A stretch of DNA of 34,816 nucleotides from a virus: IMG/VR virus record IMGVR_UViG_3300042868_010225, positions 1 through 34,816 of that record; one strand, written 5' to 3'. A model generated the notes under the pieces. The model searched no databases, was not told the origin of the DNA, and worked only from the letters and a program-made list of their open reading frames with translations. Below, piece by piece: positions 7,244 through 22,448 of the stretch. The stretch's first letter is position 1. Every line of letters starts with the position of its first letter. Position numbers and translations under genes: made by a program.

Positions 7244-8221
7244 ATGAAACACGGATCTTTATTTAGCGGAATCGGTGGCTTTGACCTTGCCGCCGAATGG
7301 GCCGGATGGGAAAACGTTTTTCATTGCGAATGGAATCCTTTTGGACAAAGAGTTTTAAAGCACCATTTCCCAAAATCAATATCATACAATGACATTACTA
7401 AAACAGACTTCACTATTCACAAAGGAAACATTGAGATTCTTAGCGGAGGATTCCCATGCCAACCATACTCAACGGCCGGGCTTAGAAAAGGAAAAGAAGA
7501 CGAACGCCATCTATGGCCGCAAATGCTTAGAGCAATTCGAGAAATTAAACCTAGTTGGGTCGTGGGGGAGAACGTTCGCGGGCTTATTAATTGGGGGGGG
7601 GGATTGGTATTCGACGAGGTGCAAACTGAGCTGGAAGCTGAAGGGTACGAAGTACTTCCGTTTCTACTTCCAGCTTGCGCCGTCAACGCACCACACCGAA
7701 GAGACCGAATATGGTTTATTGCTTACGCCAACAACAAGGGAGGAAGTACAAGACCTGGACAAGTTCAAAGCAAGAATGGAGAAATATCCGAATGGTACAA
7801 CGATGCCGAATCTTGCGACGCAAGTAGTAAAAATGCTTCCAACCCCAACAGCATCGGACAGCCCAGAAAAGAATACGGGAAAATTAAATCAGGACGGATT
7901 ACAAAAGAGGGCAAGAAATGGATTACTACCGACACCGACATTGCAGGAATACACGAACAGCACATTACCTCCAAGTCAAATGAATCGAAACAATATAGCG
8001 GGCCATCTTTTGAGGCAAGGAGTTTCGGCTGCTTCCCAACTAAACCCCCAGTTTGTGGAGGAAATGATGGGATTTCCAGAGAACTGGACGGAATTACCTT
8101 TTCTAAATGGCGCAACGAATCCATCAAAGCATACGGAAACGCAATAGTTCCGCAAGTAGCATACGAAATTTTTAAAACCATAAAACAAATAGAACATGAA
8201 AAAAGAAACCCGAGGCCGTAA
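7244..8221 (+). CDS. DNA (cytosine-5-)-methyltransferase
   Basis: 325 residues with the C5-methyltransferase motifs in order: motif I FSGIGGFDLA (7-16, SAM binding); motif IV GGFPCQPYS (68-76, catalytic Cys72); motif VI ENVRG (109-113); motif VIII HRRDRIWF (151-158); and motif X YGNAIVPQ near 297-304. The stretch of about 160-270 is the target-recognition region and is low in complexity here. The enzyme probably methylates phage DNA against host restriction. A G10 run encodes Gly118-120, and a second long frame overlaps most of the gene (7389-8147). Confidence 0.93.
   Translation: MKHGSLFSGIGGFDLAAEWAGWENVFHCEWNPFGQRVLKHHFPKSISYNDITKTDFTIHKGNIEILSGGFPCQPYSTAGLRKGKEDERHLWPQMLRAIREIKPSWVVGENVRGLINWGGGLVFDEVQTELEAEGYEVLPFLLPACAVNAPHRRDRIWFIAYANNKGGSTRPGQVQSKNGEISEWYNDAESCDASSKNASNPNSIGQPRKEYGKIKSGRITKEGKKWITTDTDIAGIHEQHITSKSNESKQYSGPSFEARSFGCFPTKPPVCGGNDGISRELDGITFSKWRNESIKAYGNAIVPQVAYEIFKTIKQIEHEKRNPRP
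7389..8147 (+). CDS. Overprinted protein in the +1 frame of the methyltransferase gene
   Basis: A 252-codon frame lies wholly inside the methyltransferase gene. Its product does not look like random translation: it has GSWGRTFAGLLIG (57-69), WYSTRCKLSWKLKGTKY (73-89), FYFQLAPST, repeated TPT boxes (LLLTPT at 110-115, MLPTPTASD at 149-157, LLPTPT at 179-184) and LNPQFVEEMMGFPENWTELPF (218-238). From memory, stand-alone hypothetical proteins with the same series (DSHANHTQ, KCLEQF, WYS, PTPTA, LNPxFVxEMMGFPxxWT) occur widely in Bacteroidota phages. In the second half this frame looks more constrained than the methyltransferase frame. The function is unknown, and the start codon is uncertain. Confidence 0.55.
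   Translation: MTLLKQTSLFTKETLRFLAEDSHANHTQRPGLEKEKKTNAIYGRKCLEQFEKLNLVGSWGRTFAGLLIGGGDWYSTRCKLSWKLKGTKYFRFYFQLAPSTHHTEETEYGLLLTPTTREEVQDLDKFKARMEKYPNGTTMPNLATQVVKMLPTPTASDSPEKNTGKLNQDGLQKRARNGLLPTPTLQEYTNSTLPPSQMNRNNIAGHLLRQGVSAASQLNPQFVEEMMGFPENWTELPFLNGATNPSKHTETQ
7593..7602 (+). repeat. G10 homopolymer inside the methyltransferase gene
   Basis: Ten consecutive G residues follow TTAATT. In the methyltransferase frame they encode Trp117-Gly120; in the overlapping frame they encode Gly-Gly-Gly-Asp. Homopolymeric G runs of this length are typical slippage sites for phase variation. Loss of one G would connect the methyltransferase N-terminal half to the overlapping frame just before its WYSTRCKLSW segment. 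It could also be a sequencing length error. Confidence 0.8.
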
Positions 8222-8562: not shown

Positions 8563-11058
8563 ATGATAAAAGCAGCCAACTATTACGCAAAGCAAGGATT
8601 CTCCGTTATACCAATCGGAGACAACAAACGCGCAGTCTTTCCTTGGACGGAGTTTCAAACCAGCATCATGAGTGATGCAACAATACAACACCAGTTTGCA
8701 AACGAGCGTTGCAAGAACATTGCCATAATAGGTGGTGGTGTATCTGGTGGCCTAGAAATTATTGACGTGGATCTTAAATACGATGTAAGCGGTACACTAT
8801 GGGCGCGCTTACAAGAAGCCCTTGCCGACCTTATGCCATTACTTTATGTGGTGCAAACTAAGTCCGGCGGGTACCATCTTTACTACCGATGCAAAGAAGT
8901 AGAGGGTAACCAAAAACTTGCAATGCGCCACGCCACTAAAGATGAATTAAAAGAAACACCACACGCCAAAGAAATAGTTTTAATAGAAACTAGAGGCGAG
9001 GGCGGTTATGTATTAGCACCGCCTAGTGAGGGTTACACTAAGCAAAAAGATTTCGTAATCAATTTGATTACGATTGAGCAACGCGAATCCATCTTATCTA
9101 TTTGCCGTAGTTTCAATGAAGTTGTCAAAGAAGTGCGCCAACAAGTAGTGGCCGACAATGATAACTTTGCCGTGACTCCGTGGGATGACTACAACGCAAA
9201 ATGCGACGTAGTAGCCTTACTAGAAAAATACGGCTGGACATGGATTGAACGCCGTGGCGAACGCGACTACCTTAAAAGACCTGGGAAAACGGACTCACAC
9301 ATTTCGGCCGATTATCATTCCGGCCTAGGATTGTTTAAAGTATTTAGCACCAGCACCGAATTTGAAACCGGTAAAGGCTACAAGCCATTTGCTATTTATG
9401 CAACGCTTGAACATAACGGAAACTTTAGCGAAGCCGCTAAGCAACTTATTAAAGATGGCTTTGGTGAGCAACGCAATAGAGTAAATGGCAACATTAAAAA
9501 AGACTTTGTAGCTAAAAAAGACGAAGGCATCGACAATGATAACATTGCAGCATTCATAAGTCAAAAACATAAGCTGGATATTAAAAAAGCTAAAAAATTA
9601 GTTGAAGACCTAGACAACGATAACGACACACAACTAAACACATTCTGGAATGTGGTCAAAGGTGTTATCAATATTGATAGGTATAAACTTATAAATGTTT
9701 TAACTAGCGAAGGTGGGTTTTATCTTTACTACTACGATAAAAAACTAAACTACCAACTGGTGCGCATCGTTGACAACTTTGTAAGCGAGACCAATATGGA
9801 GCAAGTCAAGAAGTTTGTTATTAGTTATATTGATGCACTACCCTACGAAAACTTTGACGGCATTAATAAAGCCAAGCTGCGCGAAGTAATTTACAAAGGT
9901 GCCGACGCATATTTTAATAAAGGCCTCTTTGAGTTTATGCCTAACATAGACCTTAAGCTTTTAAAACATACTAAAGACTCGGCCTACTTTCCATTCCTTA
10001 ACGGCGTGGTGCATGTAACTAAAGACAAAAAAGAATTATTAAAATACGGCTCTATTAATATGCACGTATGGAAGGATCAAGTCATTCAATATAAAATAGA
10101 TGTCGACCAAGACTTAGACTATGAGAACGTACAATACACTAAATTTATTAATAAAATTAGCGATAGCAATAGCCAACGAGAGGCCTACGCAATCAGTCTC
10201 ATTGGGTACTTGCTCCATACTTATAAAGATCCAACGAAGTCCTATGCCGTTATCCTCGCCGAAGAAACCGAAGACGAAAGTGCTGGTGGAGGTGCGGGTA
10301 AGGGATTGTTCTTTAAAGCAATAGGCAAACTTATAAACGTAGTATCGATTGACGGAAAGAATTTTAAGCTTGATAAATCCTTTGCATTCCAAAGAGTTGA
10401 GTTAAGCACGCAGTTAATAATTATTGAGGACTGTCGCAAAAACGTAGACTTCGAAGGATTTTATAGCAAGATTACCGAGGGCGTAACCATAGAAAAAAAG
10501 AACAAAGACGAGGTTTATATAAGCTACGAGGACTCACCAAAGTTTGGGTTTACTACAAACTATACTATTAACTATTCGGGTGGGCATGGTAAGCGTCGCG
10601 TTAAGGTAATAGAGTTTAGTTCGTTTTTTAACCATCGTAATACACCACTTGACTTCTTTGGTGGCAAGGCCTTGTTTAACGACTGGGACAAAGACGAATG
10701 GAACCGCTTTTATAACTACATGATTGAGTGCGTGCAAATATACCTAGAGGCCGGAATACCCGCCCTAGATAATAGCGAAACTATTAATCGTAAGAATATT
10801 AAACTAAACTTTGGCGAAGACTTCCTGGACTATTTTGACGCCCTAGAGCGTGACAAATGGCTAGACTTTAGTAACGAGTACCTTAACTTTTTAAACACCA
10901 ACGACATGGACAAAAAAGATTTTAGCAAGGTAAAGTTTAAAAAAGCACTTAAAACCAGTGCCGAGTTATACGCCGGAAGCTTCACCACATTAAGAAACCA
11001 TCAAAATAACAATAAAAGTGAGTTTAAAATTATACTTGGATCCGATAGCAGCTTTTGA
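8563..11058 (+). CDS. Bifunctional primase-polymerase / SF3 (D5-like) helicase
   Basis: 831 residues. The N-terminal Prim-Pol (AEP) domain shows IDVDLKY (Asp68, Asp70, metal binding) and SGGYHLYYR (His105), preceded by the usual KQGFSVIPIG start. The C-terminal part is an SF3/D5-type helicase: Walker A GGGAGKGLF at about 574-582, Walker B QLIIIEDC at about 617-624, and a sensor-like FTTNYTI near 670. The middle (about 220-450) resembles PriCT/D5 N-terminal linkers. It is the core replication protein: it primes and probably extends DNA and unwinds the fork. It is the last gene before a 238-base non-coding gap. Confidence 0.9.
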   Translation: MIKAANYYAKQGFSVIPIGDNKRAVFPWTEFQTSIMSDATIQHQFANERCKNIAIIGGGVSGGLEIIDVDLKYDVSGTLWARLQEALADLMPLLYVVQTKSGGYHLYYRCKEVEGNQKLAMRHATKDELKETPHAKEIVLIETRGEGGYVLAPPSEGYTKQKDFVINLITIEQRESILSICRSFNEVVKEVRQQVVADNDNFAVTPWDDYNAKCDVVALLEKYGWTWIERRGERDYLKRPGKTDSHISADYHSGLGLFKVFSTSTEFETGKGYKPFAIYATLEHNGNFSEAAKQLIKDGFGEQRNRVNGNIKKDFVAKKDEGIDNDNIAAFISQKHKLDIKKAKKLVEDLDNDNDTQLNTFWNVVKGVINIDRYKLINVLTSEGGFYLYYYDKKLNYQLVRIVDNFVSETNMEQVKKFVISYIDALPYENFDGINKAKLREVIYKGADAYFNKGLFEFMPNIDLKLLKHTKDSAYFPFLNGVVHVTKDKKELLKYGSINMHVWKDQVIQYKIDVDQDLDYENVQYTKFINKISDSNSQREAYAISLIGYLLHTYKDPTKSYAVILAEETEDESAGGGAGKGLFFKAIGKLINVVSIDGKNFKLDKSFAFQRVELSTQLIIIEDCRKNVDFEGFYSKITEGVTIEKKNKDEVYISYEDSPKFGFTTNYTINYSGGHGKRRVKVIEFSSFFNHRNTPLDFFGGKALFNDWDKDEWNRFYNYMIECVQIYLEAGIPALDNSETINRKNIKLNFGEDFLDYFDALERDKWLDFSNEYLNFLNTNDMDKKDFSKVKFKKALKTSAELYAGSFTTLRNHQNNNKSEFKIILGSDSSF

Positions 11059-11220: not shown

Positions 11221-11232
11221 GGGGGGGGGGGG
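11221..11232 (+). repeat. G12 homopolymer in the early/late boundary
   Basis: Twelve consecutive G residues, flanked by CTTTTTA and TAAAAAAATAAAG, in an otherwise AT-rich region. It lies 65 bases before the sigma-like gene ATG. Runs of this length are prone to polymerase slippage and are known elsewhere to tune promoter spacing. It could also form a G-quadruplex-like structure with other strands, or be of uncertain length in the assembly. Confidence 0.8.
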
Positions 11233-11283: not shown

Positions 11284-11291
11284 TAAATTTG
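11284..11291 (+). promoter_or_regulatory. Promoter-like element TAAATTTG directly before the sigma-like gene
   Basis: TAAATTTG matches TAnnTTTG and ends five bases before the ATG at 11297. If used, transcription would begin at or next to the start codon and give a leaderless or nearly leaderless mRNA. The alternative is that transcription starts at 11089 and this match is chance. Confidence 0.35.
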
Positions 11292-18884: not shown

Positions 18885-21800
18885 ATGACTAGAATATTTA
18901 TAGAAGGATATGAACTAGATTTAACGCAAGGCTTAAGCAATCAAATAACTTATGCCATTGATGACTTACAAAACCTAGATAGCAAAAGTACTGCTTTTAC
19001 TAAAACAATTGTACTTCCTGGAACTGCTAACAATAATAAGCTTTTAGGTAATATATTTGAGTTTAACAATGCGAACTTTTTTAACGAATCGGATCAAAAC
19101 GTTCTAGCAAACTTTAACGCATCGGTAAGGGCAAATGCAAGAATTGAAGTCGATGGCTTGCAAATAATGAAAGGCACTTTAAGGCTTCTTGAAATTATAC
19201 ACGTAGACGGAGCAATAGAATATGAGTGCGCTATATTTGGTGAACTAGGTGGCTTTATTTCTGCGCTTGGTAATTTACGCCTTGAAGATTTAGATTTTAG
19301 TGATTACAACCATAATTATAACGTAGACAATATTACTGCAAGCTGGGAGGCTAGTGGGTCTAGAGGCACTAACAATAGCGCAGCTTATGGAAGCGGTTAC
19401 TACTACCCTTTAATAGATTACGGAGCCGATAGTACAAACAAGATAGACTTTAAGCTTAACGCTTTTAGACCTTCTTTTTTTGCTAAAGAGTACATTGATA
19501 AAATGTTTCAAGATGCTAACTATACTTATACTTCTACTTTTTTAAATAGTACATTTTTCAAAAGTTTATTAATACCTAACAACCAAAAAGAATTTAGCAA
19601 AAAAAGTAGTATTGCTTTTAAAGTATTAAATGAAGGCGATTTTTATACAAACGAATCTGGTGGCAACGTGCCGATAGGATTTAGCACTACAACTACGCTA
19701 GGTAATTTTAATGTCAACGGCACTTATGATTTATTTACTTATAATACTTCAACTGTTTTAACCGGATCGCTTAACCTTACTTTAAAAGGTAGCATTGTTT
19801 ATGGAACACCTATTGGTATTGTATCTTTTAAGGTATTAAAAAACGGAGTTGTAATACATACCCAAAATACAACCGCAACTACATTTGATTTAAGCATTGT
19901 TATAAACGAAGTTAGTTTTACTTTAAACGATACCTTGCAAATTGCATGGTCTGGTTCTTATAGAGAAGACACATACTTTACCGAACTAACAATTGATAGC
20001 GGTAGCGTTACAATTAATAGCGTTGCTATTTATGTACCATTTAACCATGACGATCCTATAACTGTTAACGATACAATTCCTAAAGGTATTTTCTTAAAAG
20101 ACTTTTTTACGTCAATTATGAAGATGTTTAACTTGTTAGTGTATGAAGACAAGTTTACTACTAACAATTTAATCATTGAGCCTTATAAAGATTTTTTCAC
20201 AAACGAGCGCATAGATTGGTCAAACAAATTAGATAGGTCAAAGCCTATTAAATTAAAACCAATGAGTGAACTTAATGCAAGATACTATAAATTAAAATAT
20301 GCGCAAGACAACGATTTCTATAATGAAAACTACCGCAAGGCATTTAATGAAGGATATGCTGATAGGATATATGATACTGCTTATGAATTTAGTAAAGATT
20401 CGGAAGATGTTTCCATAATATTTGCTCCAAGTGTTTTATATAAAGCAACCGGAACCGATAAAACATATCCGACTATTTACAAAAAGTCAAATAATAACGC
20501 GGCCGAAGATAGGATGGATTCTGTTATAAGAATTGGTATGGTTAAAAAAATAACCGACGTTGCAAACTGGCGCATACAAAAGCAAGACGGAAGTGGTAAC
20601 TGGTCTGGCATTTTAAATGCTTTTGGTTATTTTGGACACCTTAATGATCCTAACACGCCAACAATAGATTTAAACTTTGGCGCACCTTTAGAAATTTATT
20701 TTACTAATAGCAGCTACCCAAGTGCTAATTTATTTAATACTTACTACTCGCAGTATATGTCCGAAATAACGGACAAAGATAGTAGGTTATTAACCGGATT
20801 TTTTGATTTAACAAATATTGACATTTTTAATTTAGACTTTGCAAAGTATATATTTTTGCAAGGTGGCCTTTATAAATTAATAAAGGTTTATGATTATAGC
20901 GCCGAGACTAACGATACCACAAAGGTAGACTTGCTTCGTGTTATTGATGCAATTACTGCGGAGGTAGGGCCAACAACAACAACTACTACAACAACTACAA
21001 GTACAACAACTACTACAACAACTTTAGCTACTTTTATCGCATCTTATAGCGAGGTGAGTGCTTACGATGTGTGTAATAATGTTTGTCCTAACCCAGCAAG
21101 ACCAGTAGAAACATTTACAATTTTAGCTGGTGGTAATTCGCTTTGCACTGCTACCGAGTTAACAAGTCCTGGCATAGTTAGCGGTGATATTGGGCCTTCT
21201 TTTTGGGTAAGTGATTGTACCGGAACTAGCAGACAATTTATAGTAATACTTGAAAGTGGTGTCTATGTAGCGATATGGGCAGAAGAGACATGTCAAACAT
21301 GTCCATCGGTTACAACTACAACTACTAGCACAACAACTACTACAACAACGGCTGCGCCTACAACAACAACTAGTACGACAACTACTACAACTACGGCCGC
21401 GCCTACTACTACTACAAGTACAACTACAACAACAACTACCGATCCTTATGACTATTATATCGCAGATGAAATTGATTGCTCTAATTGTTCAGTAGTAGCT
21501 GCGGATCAAAGAGTATCATTCCCAACCGGTACAAGTGTAACATTAAATAGGTATTATAGATACGTAGGTTTTGACAATGACTTTACTTATTATGTTAAAA
21601 GTGCAACAACGGCTGGTGGTGCAGTATTATTAGAATTGCCTTCATATACAACTTGCAATGCAGCATGTGGTAATACAACAACAACTAGTACTACTACTAC
21701 AACTACAACGGCGGCAACTACAACAACTAGTACAACAACAACGACAACAACTTATGCTCCAATTGCATTAAGTGCAACTCCAGGTTGTACTGGCGGTGCT

Positions 21801-22448
21801 GGAACTGGAACTGTTACTGCTAATGGATTTAACGGAGGTAGTGAGAGTTTTGAGTATATCGCAATAAGTTCTAGTTCAAGTAGTGATGCGCTTAGTAGAT
21901 TAGACAATTCAGCAACTAGAGATAATTTATTGGGTGCTACCGAGTTTACATATACTATGCTTGCAAATGCAACATATTATGTAGCAATTATGGATAATGT
22001 AGGTAATAAAGGAGTAAGTTCTGGAGCGGTTGTAAATTGTGTTACAACTACAACTACAAGTACTACAACTACAACCACAACGGCTGCAACTACAACAACT
22101 ACTAGTACTACAACTACTACAACTACTTTAGGTTATGCTTTTGTTGACATTGCTAACAACACGGCTGGTACTGACATTACAAATATAACTGTTGGCGGAG
22201 TGCAAGTAGACGGAGCAGTTTTCCCAATTGTAGCGGGTGATGGCGCAAGTGCTACAACAACTGAAACCGGTGCATCTAAAACCATAGTTGTATCTTACAC
22301 AAATATAAGCAACGATTCTGTTGAAGTAATTGATACTGCATCAAATCTTAATTGTGCAAGTGCAACGTCAACAAGTAGGTCATTTGCTGGACAAGTTGTA
22401 AGCGATGGCGGTACATTATCAATCCAAATGTTTGACGGATCATGCTAA
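18885..22448 (+). CDS. Large tail protein with four threonine-rich linkers
   Basis: 1187 residues. Residues 1-695 form a tail-tip-like part; the N-terminus has LDLTQGLSNQITYAIDDL and STAFTKTIVLPGTANNNKLL, typical of Bacteroidota phage tail or baseplate proteins. The rest is a chain of four small domains (about 80-106 residues, some Cys-rich, e.g. DEIDCSNCSVVAADQ) separated by poly-Thr/Ser tracts at about 696-714, 809-852, 930-956 and 1053-1082. This is a bead-and-linker design suited to extended receptor-binding arms. The Thr tracts could be O-glycosylated; a glycosyltransferase gene follows directly. Confidence 0.75.
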   Translation: MTRIFIEGYELDLTQGLSNQITYAIDDLQNLDSKSTAFTKTIVLPGTANNNKLLGNIFEFNNANFFNESDQNVLANFNASVRANARIEVDGLQIMKGTLRLLEIIHVDGAIEYECAIFGELGGFISALGNLRLEDLDFSDYNHNYNVDNITASWEASGSRGTNNSAAYGSGYYYPLIDYGADSTNKIDFKLNAFRPSFFAKEYIDKMFQDANYTYTSTFLNSTFFKSLLIPNNQKEFSKKSSIAFKVLNEGDFYTNESGGNVPIGFSTTTTLGNFNVNGTYDLFTYNTSTVLTGSLNLTLKGSIVYGTPIGIVSFKVLKNGVVIHTQNTTATTFDLSIVINEVSFTLNDTLQIAWSGSYREDTYFTELTIDSGSVTINSVAIYVPFNHDDPITVNDTIPKGIFLKDFFTSIMKMFNLLVYEDKFTTNNLIIEPYKDFFTNERIDWSNKLDRSKPIKLKPMSELNARYYKLKYAQDNDFYNENYRKAFNEGYADRIYDTAYEFSKDSEDVSIIFAPSVLYKATGTDKTYPTIYKKSNNNAAEDRMDSVIRIGMVKKITDVANWRIQKQDGSGNWSGILNAFGYFGHLNDPNTPTIDLNFGAPLEIYFTNSSYPSANLFNTYYSQYMSEITDKDSRLLTGFFDLTNIDIFNLDFAKYIFLQGGLYKLIKVYDYSAETNDTTKVDLLRVIDAITAEVGPTTTTTTTTTSTTTTTTTLATFIASYSEVSAYDVCNNVCPNPARPVETFTILAGGNSLCTATELTSPGIVSGDIGPSFWVSDCTGTSRQFIVILESGVYVAIWAEETCQTCPSVTTTTTSTTTTTTTAAPTTTTSTTTTTTTAAPTTTTSTTTTTTTDPYDYYIADEIDCSNCSVVAADQRVSFPTGTSVTLNRYYRYVGFDNDFTYYVKSATTAGGAVLLELPSYTTCNAACGNTTTTSTTTTTTTAATTTTSTTTTTTTYAPIALSATPGCTGGAGTGTVTANGFNGGSESFEYIAISSSSSSDALSRLDNSATRDNLLGATEFTYTMLANATYYVAIMDNVGNKGVSSGAVVNCVTTTTTSTTTTTTTAATTTTTSTTTTTTTLGYAFVDIANNTAGTDITNITVGGVQVDGAVFPIVAGDGASATTTETGASKTIVVSYTNISNDSVEVIDTASNLNCASATSTSRSFAGQVVSDGGTLSIQMFDGSC
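20971..22130 (+). repeat. Four ACN-repeat threonine tracts
   Basis: Imperfect ACN trinucleotide repeats at 20971-21025, 21311-21440, 21673-21752 and 22042-22130 encode runs such as T7-S-T7, with AAP inserts in the second. Codons ACA, ACT and ACG are mixed, which keeps the amino acid constant while interrupting long identical DNA repeats. The tracts are similar enough to recombine, so domain number may vary between isolates. Confidence 0.9.

Follow-up and report, generated by a model that had tools for sequence, protein, structure and literature searches.

A guanine run at the fork between a phage cytosine methyltransferase gene and a conserved overlapping frame: a probable contingency site

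Whether a run of guanines could serve a phage as a switch, and between which products, is the question raised by a C5-cytosine DNA methyltransferase (MTase) gene that carries ten consecutive Gs (G10, GGGGGGGGGG) in its middle part. The DNA analysed is an IMG/VR virus record of 34,816 bases with a G+C content of 38%, referred to below as the window, and the virus infects bacteria. A sequence-only reading had placed the run at the fork between two frames of this gene and proposed that a phage population might alternate between an active MTase and a chimaeric or truncated product. Phase variation through poly-G tracts is well known in bacteria; a limited literature search, restricted to open-licence papers, found no account of it in a modification gene belonging to a phage, nor any of phase variation in a phage C5-MTase or of the gene overlap presented here. 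In silico comparison with relatives indicates that G10 is probably a slippage-prone contingency site at which two overlapping genes of the same strand share DNA.

Table 1. Coordinates of the MTase gene, of the G-run and of the overlapping frame in the window
Feature	Position	Strand	Observations
C5-cytosine DNA methyltransferase (MTase), frame 0, 325 aa	7244..8221	+	PF00145 E 3.8e-45; phrog_363 E 2e-74; motifs I, IV, VI, VIII and X intact
G10 run at the fork, Trp117-Gly120 of the MTase	7593..7602	+	9-12 Gs and three phases among relatives
Hidden ORF, overlapping +1 frame, 252 aa from ATG 7389	7389..8147	+	phrog_1008 E 4e-24; stop depletion; conserved ATG; equivalent ORF annotated in Shelly
N1, hidden-ORF segment preceding the fork	7389..7583	+	open; amino-acid sequence not conserved
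C1, conserved segment of the hidden ORF (LLIGxxxWYSTRCxLTWK..LPTPTAxD..LNPxFVxEMMGFPxxWTxLPF)	7584..8144	+	alternative-frame constraint from MTase codon 114-115; cross-phylum null test
C0, post-fork half of the MTase in frame 0 (holds motifs VIII and X and the target-recognition region)	7604..8218	+	no stop before its natural end in any -1 lineage

The enzyme belongs to the PF00145 family according to both its profile match and the presence of motifs I, IV (PCQ), VI (ENV), VIII and X. The run covers exactly the bases and codons first assigned to it (Table 1). Elsewhere in the 34,816 bases the longest G-run is of 5, with the exception of an intergenic G12 at 11221-11232, and no C-run exceeds 5; since the number of G10 matches expected from dinucleotide shuffles is 0.00, the run is far beyond chance. 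Motifs I (FSGIGG, 7262-7279), IV (from 7454) and VI (ending 7576) precede it, while motif VIII (7691-7723), the target-recognition region and motif X (GNAIVP, within 8129-8155) follow. The proposed division into a catalytic half before the run and a recognition half after it therefore holds for motifs I, IV and VI and fails for VIII and X, the upstream part containing only some of the catalytic core. The open stretch of the +1 frame begins ahead of ATG 7389 and reaches 8147 and, as had been predicted, deletion of one G leads the MTase N-terminus into this frame just before WYSTRC; addition of one G leads into the remaining frame, in which a stop is met after ca. 11 codons.

Runs were sampled without regard to phase by searching IMG/VR for 8 or more Gs directly after the upstream sequence, which gave 58 run-bearing sequences including the window, after exclusion of one contig (L226) that ends in the run. 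Lengths of 9, 10, 11 or 12 Gs were found, with 43 of the 58 sequences in phase (10 Gs and AT, 11 Gs and one base, or 12 Gs), 13 at -1 (9 or 11 Gs) and two in the third phase (+1/-2). Uniform length in related phages would have refuted the proposal; with 15/58 out of phase, it was not observed. The chimaera foreseen for the -1 state is precisely what the 13 contigs encode, the MTase N-terminus reading directly into WYSxRCxLxWK or a close variant in each of them. These 13 contigs correspond to nine lineages at 97% identity.

Most MTase genes in a set made up of the window and 80 viral loci (81 in all) have no long run and carry TGGAACGGGGGATTGG or TGGAATGGAGGGTTGG (Trp-Asn-Gly-Gly) at the fork, so that a switch would be confined to some lineages. 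Viral loci were also retrieved via the hidden ORF, and hence without bias for MTase phase; all 75 of these without a run are in phase, and two of the five run-bearing loci retrieved in the same way are at -1. Among bacterial or prophage loci 79/80 are in phase, the lone exception being broken away from the fork, within the N-terminal half. This makes a total of 154 in-phase relatives without a run (75 viral and 79 bacterial or prophage), and phase is associated with the presence of the run (Fisher p 8e-10, uncorrected for relatedness of the sequences). Two interrupted runs, G4AG5 in L008 and G4AG6 in L247, are also in phase and occur in sisters of two -1 lineages, with 97-98% identity in the N-terminal region. 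Since relatives with no run or an interrupted one stay in phase, the run is the site where the frame breaks. In L008 and L247, a single transition at the fork would suffice to fix the switch or to release it.

Differences in length were also found between close relatives. L209 has 11 Gs (-1) and L205, L208 and L227 have 12, these contigs being clustered at 97% identity or more over the gene region; L219 (-1), L211 (in phase) and L204 (-2) are close relatives in three phases; and L222 (+1) carries one G more than its close relatives L210 and L216. Contigs of close relatives are more mosaic outside the gene. Phase has changed at least 9 times on a tree of the N-terminal region. The locus thus displays what is expected of a contingency locus, namely a long homopolymer inside a coding region whose change in length alters the product, and close relatives that differ in that length, out-of-frame lengths included. 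That slippage occurs within a population is inferred.

Two -1 contigs, L086 and L091, both have G11 and differ by 16 substitutions over 4963 bases, which indicates that they come from different populations and are not one assembly read twice. This shared run despite independent SNPs argues against long G-runs having simply been miscounted, in which case the off-phase contigs would be assembly or sequencing errors. The same applies to the -1 phase being as frequent at G9 as at G11 (7 vs 6 contigs) and to the inequality of the two off phases (13 vs 2). G-runs of 9-12 are nonetheless generally prone to sequencing error, the run data come entirely from metagenome contigs and some of these may carry homopolymer errors; as an explanation of the off-phase contigs, miscounting is improbable.

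In all nine -1 lineages C0 is still open to motif X, in another frame, which fits a recent or reversible change; no reversion was seen and reversibility is an inference. This lack of decay speaks against another explanation, in which the run is a neutral by-product of Gly-Gly-Gly being coded in both frames and the off-phase sequences are broken MTase alleles heading for loss, without any switching. Dual coding does restrict codon choice at the fork, where relatives without a run use WNGG/IGTG or IGME, and phage orphan MTases are often dispensable, a point made for another phage MTase (PMC11855218). On the other hand, the run recurs across numerous lineages, with at least 11-12 changes between run and no run on the tree, even though it is hypermutable, and the in-phase interrupted runs imply that a stable solution is just one substitution away. 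A by-product without switching is thus rather unlikely, without being negligible.

The alternative frame at the fork, which had been said to be ready for use, is more than merely open. Over the 81 loci only 3 stops occur in the +1 frame when 509 are expected from synonymous-codon shuffles of the MTase, stops in the third frame being at the level expected from the same shuffles. Regional counts over 182 non-identical genes gave 12 stops vs 340 expected for codons 48-112, none vs 265 for codons 115-165 and 11 vs 417 for the target-recognition region; in codons 1-44, 496 stops exceed the 320 expected. Stop avoidance in the second frame therefore goes beyond the constraint of the first, as required for dual coding. 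Substitutions follow the same frame downstream: their shares by MTase codon position are.22/.12/.65 upstream of the fork, with third positions most variable, and.49/.22/.29 in the target-recognition region, where the most variable positions are MTase first positions, i.e. third positions of the hidden frame. In this region the hidden protein is also better conserved than the MTase (identity.75 vs.65). Constraint in the hidden frame starts at MTase codon 114-115, and in N1 the codon-position pattern tracks frame 0 only, this part being open yet free to vary, so that the amino-acid constraint expected of dual coding is met for C1 and not for N1. Taken with the null test below, the stops and substitutions indicate that the hidden +1 frame is a gene overlapping the MTase.

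Searches with C1 found phages of Paenibacillus, Lacticaseibacillus, Salmonella, Klebsiella, Acinetobacter and others, and the hidden-ORF copy of Paenibacillus phage Shelly found further phages when used as the query. Similarity to the C1 of the window was compared with a null in which each MTase protein is kept fixed and its synonymous codons are shuffled. Scores were 222 for Shelly (null 45 +/- 11, maximum 85), 153 for Lacticaseibacillus R23.9 (null maximum 88), 114 for Salmonella SI7 (null maximum 54) and 121 for Escherichia SHAK7693 (null maximum 66). By this measure, conservation of C1 extends to phages of other phyla and far exceeds what a fixed MTase would give. No close relative of the first 25 kb of the window was found in the phage collection.

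All 62 aligned members of the hidden-ORF family match phrog_1008, which is labelled 'DNA methyltransferase', and MTase motifs are absent from C1 by eye. It would appear that phrog_1008 is the +1-frame product and that its label is probably a misannotation by position. In Shelly, the homolog gp56 is encoded in the +1 frame relative to the methylase and is annotated as 'g55 internal gene'; it belongs, with phrog_1008, to the same family as the hidden ORF of the window. In these records the overlap is left unexplained and the label is 'DNA methyltransferase', and Shelly has no G-run. None of the 62 members is matched by an NCBIfam model, the hidden-frame protein of the window has no Pfam match, the hidden ORF has no sequence relative in the PDB, and no stand-alone, non-overlapping relative of C1 occurs among the 80 bacterial loci retrieved via the hidden ORF. 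AlphaFold predicted the hidden ORF with low confidence (mean pLDDT 53). In the predicted chimaera the N-terminal half is confident and matches M.HhaI, and C1 is not (mean 64), so that no fold is claimed for it. In a further locus, L115 (KT997847, uncultured phage Deep1-GF2-KM23-C739), a frame break interrupts the MTase within the N-terminal third, and it is the hidden frame that bears the CDS label 'putative cytosine-specific methyltransferase'.

The hidden ORF is probably read from an internal start, ATG 7389 in the window, its translation being inferred. Of the 182 genes, 148 have an ATG at alternative codon index 46-48 and, at this site, the MTase Asn codon before G is AAT in 57 cases and AAC in one, against 165:238 elsewhere. 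In Shelly, GGGAGG is found 12 bases upstream of the hidden-ORF ATG. A leader such as N1, open and unconstrained, also suggests translation from an internal start; because its amino acids are not constrained, the case for its translation rests on stop avoidance and on the ATG.

The chief alternative to this internal start is a frameshift immediately ahead of the fork, an idea that arose from constraint on C1 beginning at the fork and being absent from N1. In its broader form, RNA polymerase or the ribosome would shift at or just before the run and yield both the MTase and an N-C1 fusion from any DNA state, run length being of minor importance. The stop depletion in codons 48-112 and the enrichment of ATG at 46-48 are not needed by a shift at the fork, and most relatives keep C1 without any G-run. 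What speaks for such a shift is the position at which hidden-frame constraint begins, immediately before the run, and the alternative-frame Leu at codon 115, which is kept in essentially every pair compared, the MTase residue at that place being variable. Expression-level slippage is overall unlikely; a programmed frameshift at the fork, once considered as the main route to C1, was demoted to a rival on account of the N1 stop depletion and the enriched ATG.

With the internal start retained as the favoured route, the run in phase would give the full C5-MTase together with a second, +1-frame protein initiated near ATG 7389; C1, the conserved half of this protein, starts at the fork. If one G were lost, the N-terminal half of the MTase (motifs I-VI) would be fused to C1. 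Deprived of motifs VIII and X and of the target-recognition region, the MTase should then be inactive, with C1 still being made; this inferred loss of methylation rests on the established anatomy of C5-MTases, and translation of the chimaera is likewise inferred. With an extra G, or with two Gs missing, both proteins would be broken. Slippage would in this way toggle modification and spare C1 in the commoner off state. The off phases occur in a ratio of 13:2 for -1 vs +1/-2 by contig (p 0.007) and of 9:2 by lineage (p 0.065); the 13:2 ratio agrees with C1 being worth keeping, and a bias towards contraction would produce it as well. The sequence-only reading had not recognised the alternative frame as a second gene, probably with a start of its own, and this gives the -1 state a new meaning: the 'chimaeric or truncated product' first envisaged is indeed encoded as a chimaera in relatives, and would amount to the MTase being off with the conserved half of the second protein kept. 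The benefit, also inferred, would probably be to evade or to match modification-dependent restriction by the host. It is also conceivable, if doubtful, that the -1 product itself works, the population then switching between the MTase and an effector composed of the N-terminal domain of the MTase and the product of a conserved overlapping gene present in phages of several bacterial phyla.

Several known systems resemble parts of this locus. Helicobacter canadensis has poly-G tracts of at least 10 in coding regions, whose change in length swaps the C-terminus and does not merely end the protein (Snyder et al. 2010, PMC2823697). Those tracts are in bacterial genes, near the 3' end, and mostly give short alternative tails (PMC2823697), whereas here the gene is of phage origin, the tract lies in mid-gene and the alternative C-terminus is a conserved overlapping gene of ca. 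180 codons. ModH of H. pylori, a phase-variable bacterial Type III N6-adenine MTase, is likewise turned on or off by the length of a repeat tract (PMC5700931). The present enzyme differs in being a phage C5-cytosine MTase whose off state would retain a second product. The ShiLan domain is an out-of-frame HNH nuclease present as a mobile insertion in a phage DNA methylase, with a patchy distribution (PMC11855218), and thus also a second protein concealed in another frame of such a gene. C1, in contrast, overlaps the body of the methylase itself and occurs in each relative examined, the hidden frame being open across that body in nearly all of them. An HNH insertion of the ShiLan type was discarded, as no HNH match was obtained in Pfam, NCBIfam or PDB sequence searches and the distribution is not patchy.

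Should the proposed switch prove real, phage populations would be hedging on whether their members are methylated, a matter of relevance to their encounters with restriction and with modification-dependent nucleases. The hidden gene appears to be widespread as an overlapping gene inside phage dcm genes, and its function has been overlooked since its position has caused it to be filed as a DNA methyltransferase. Conclusions on MTase evolution or function that ignore the second frame would be biased, for instance those on rates in the target-recognition region.

Other tracts were detected in the window and in its relatives. The G12 at 11221-11232 lies in the gap between a primase-like ORF (ending at 11058) and an ORF that starts at 11291, and a Bacteroidota-like TAnnTTTG promoter element lies downstream of the tract; the corresponding intergenic tract is G12 in L092 and G11 in L091, and it is possibly a contingency tract of a promoter region. 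In L039 and L038, which have no run at the fork, a C10 (L039:2453-2462) and a C8 (L038:2443-2450) occur ca. 10 bases upstream of the MTase start codon, and L164 has a G9 ca. 75-85 bases upstream of the MTase; in lineages of these types expression of the MTase may be varied by another route. A G15 is found ca. 1 kb downstream of the MTase in L068 (position 7015). Finally, a large ORF of the window (18885-22448) encodes a structural-type protein with several long threonine-rich tracts (TTTTSTTTTTT) and variable-looking repeats.
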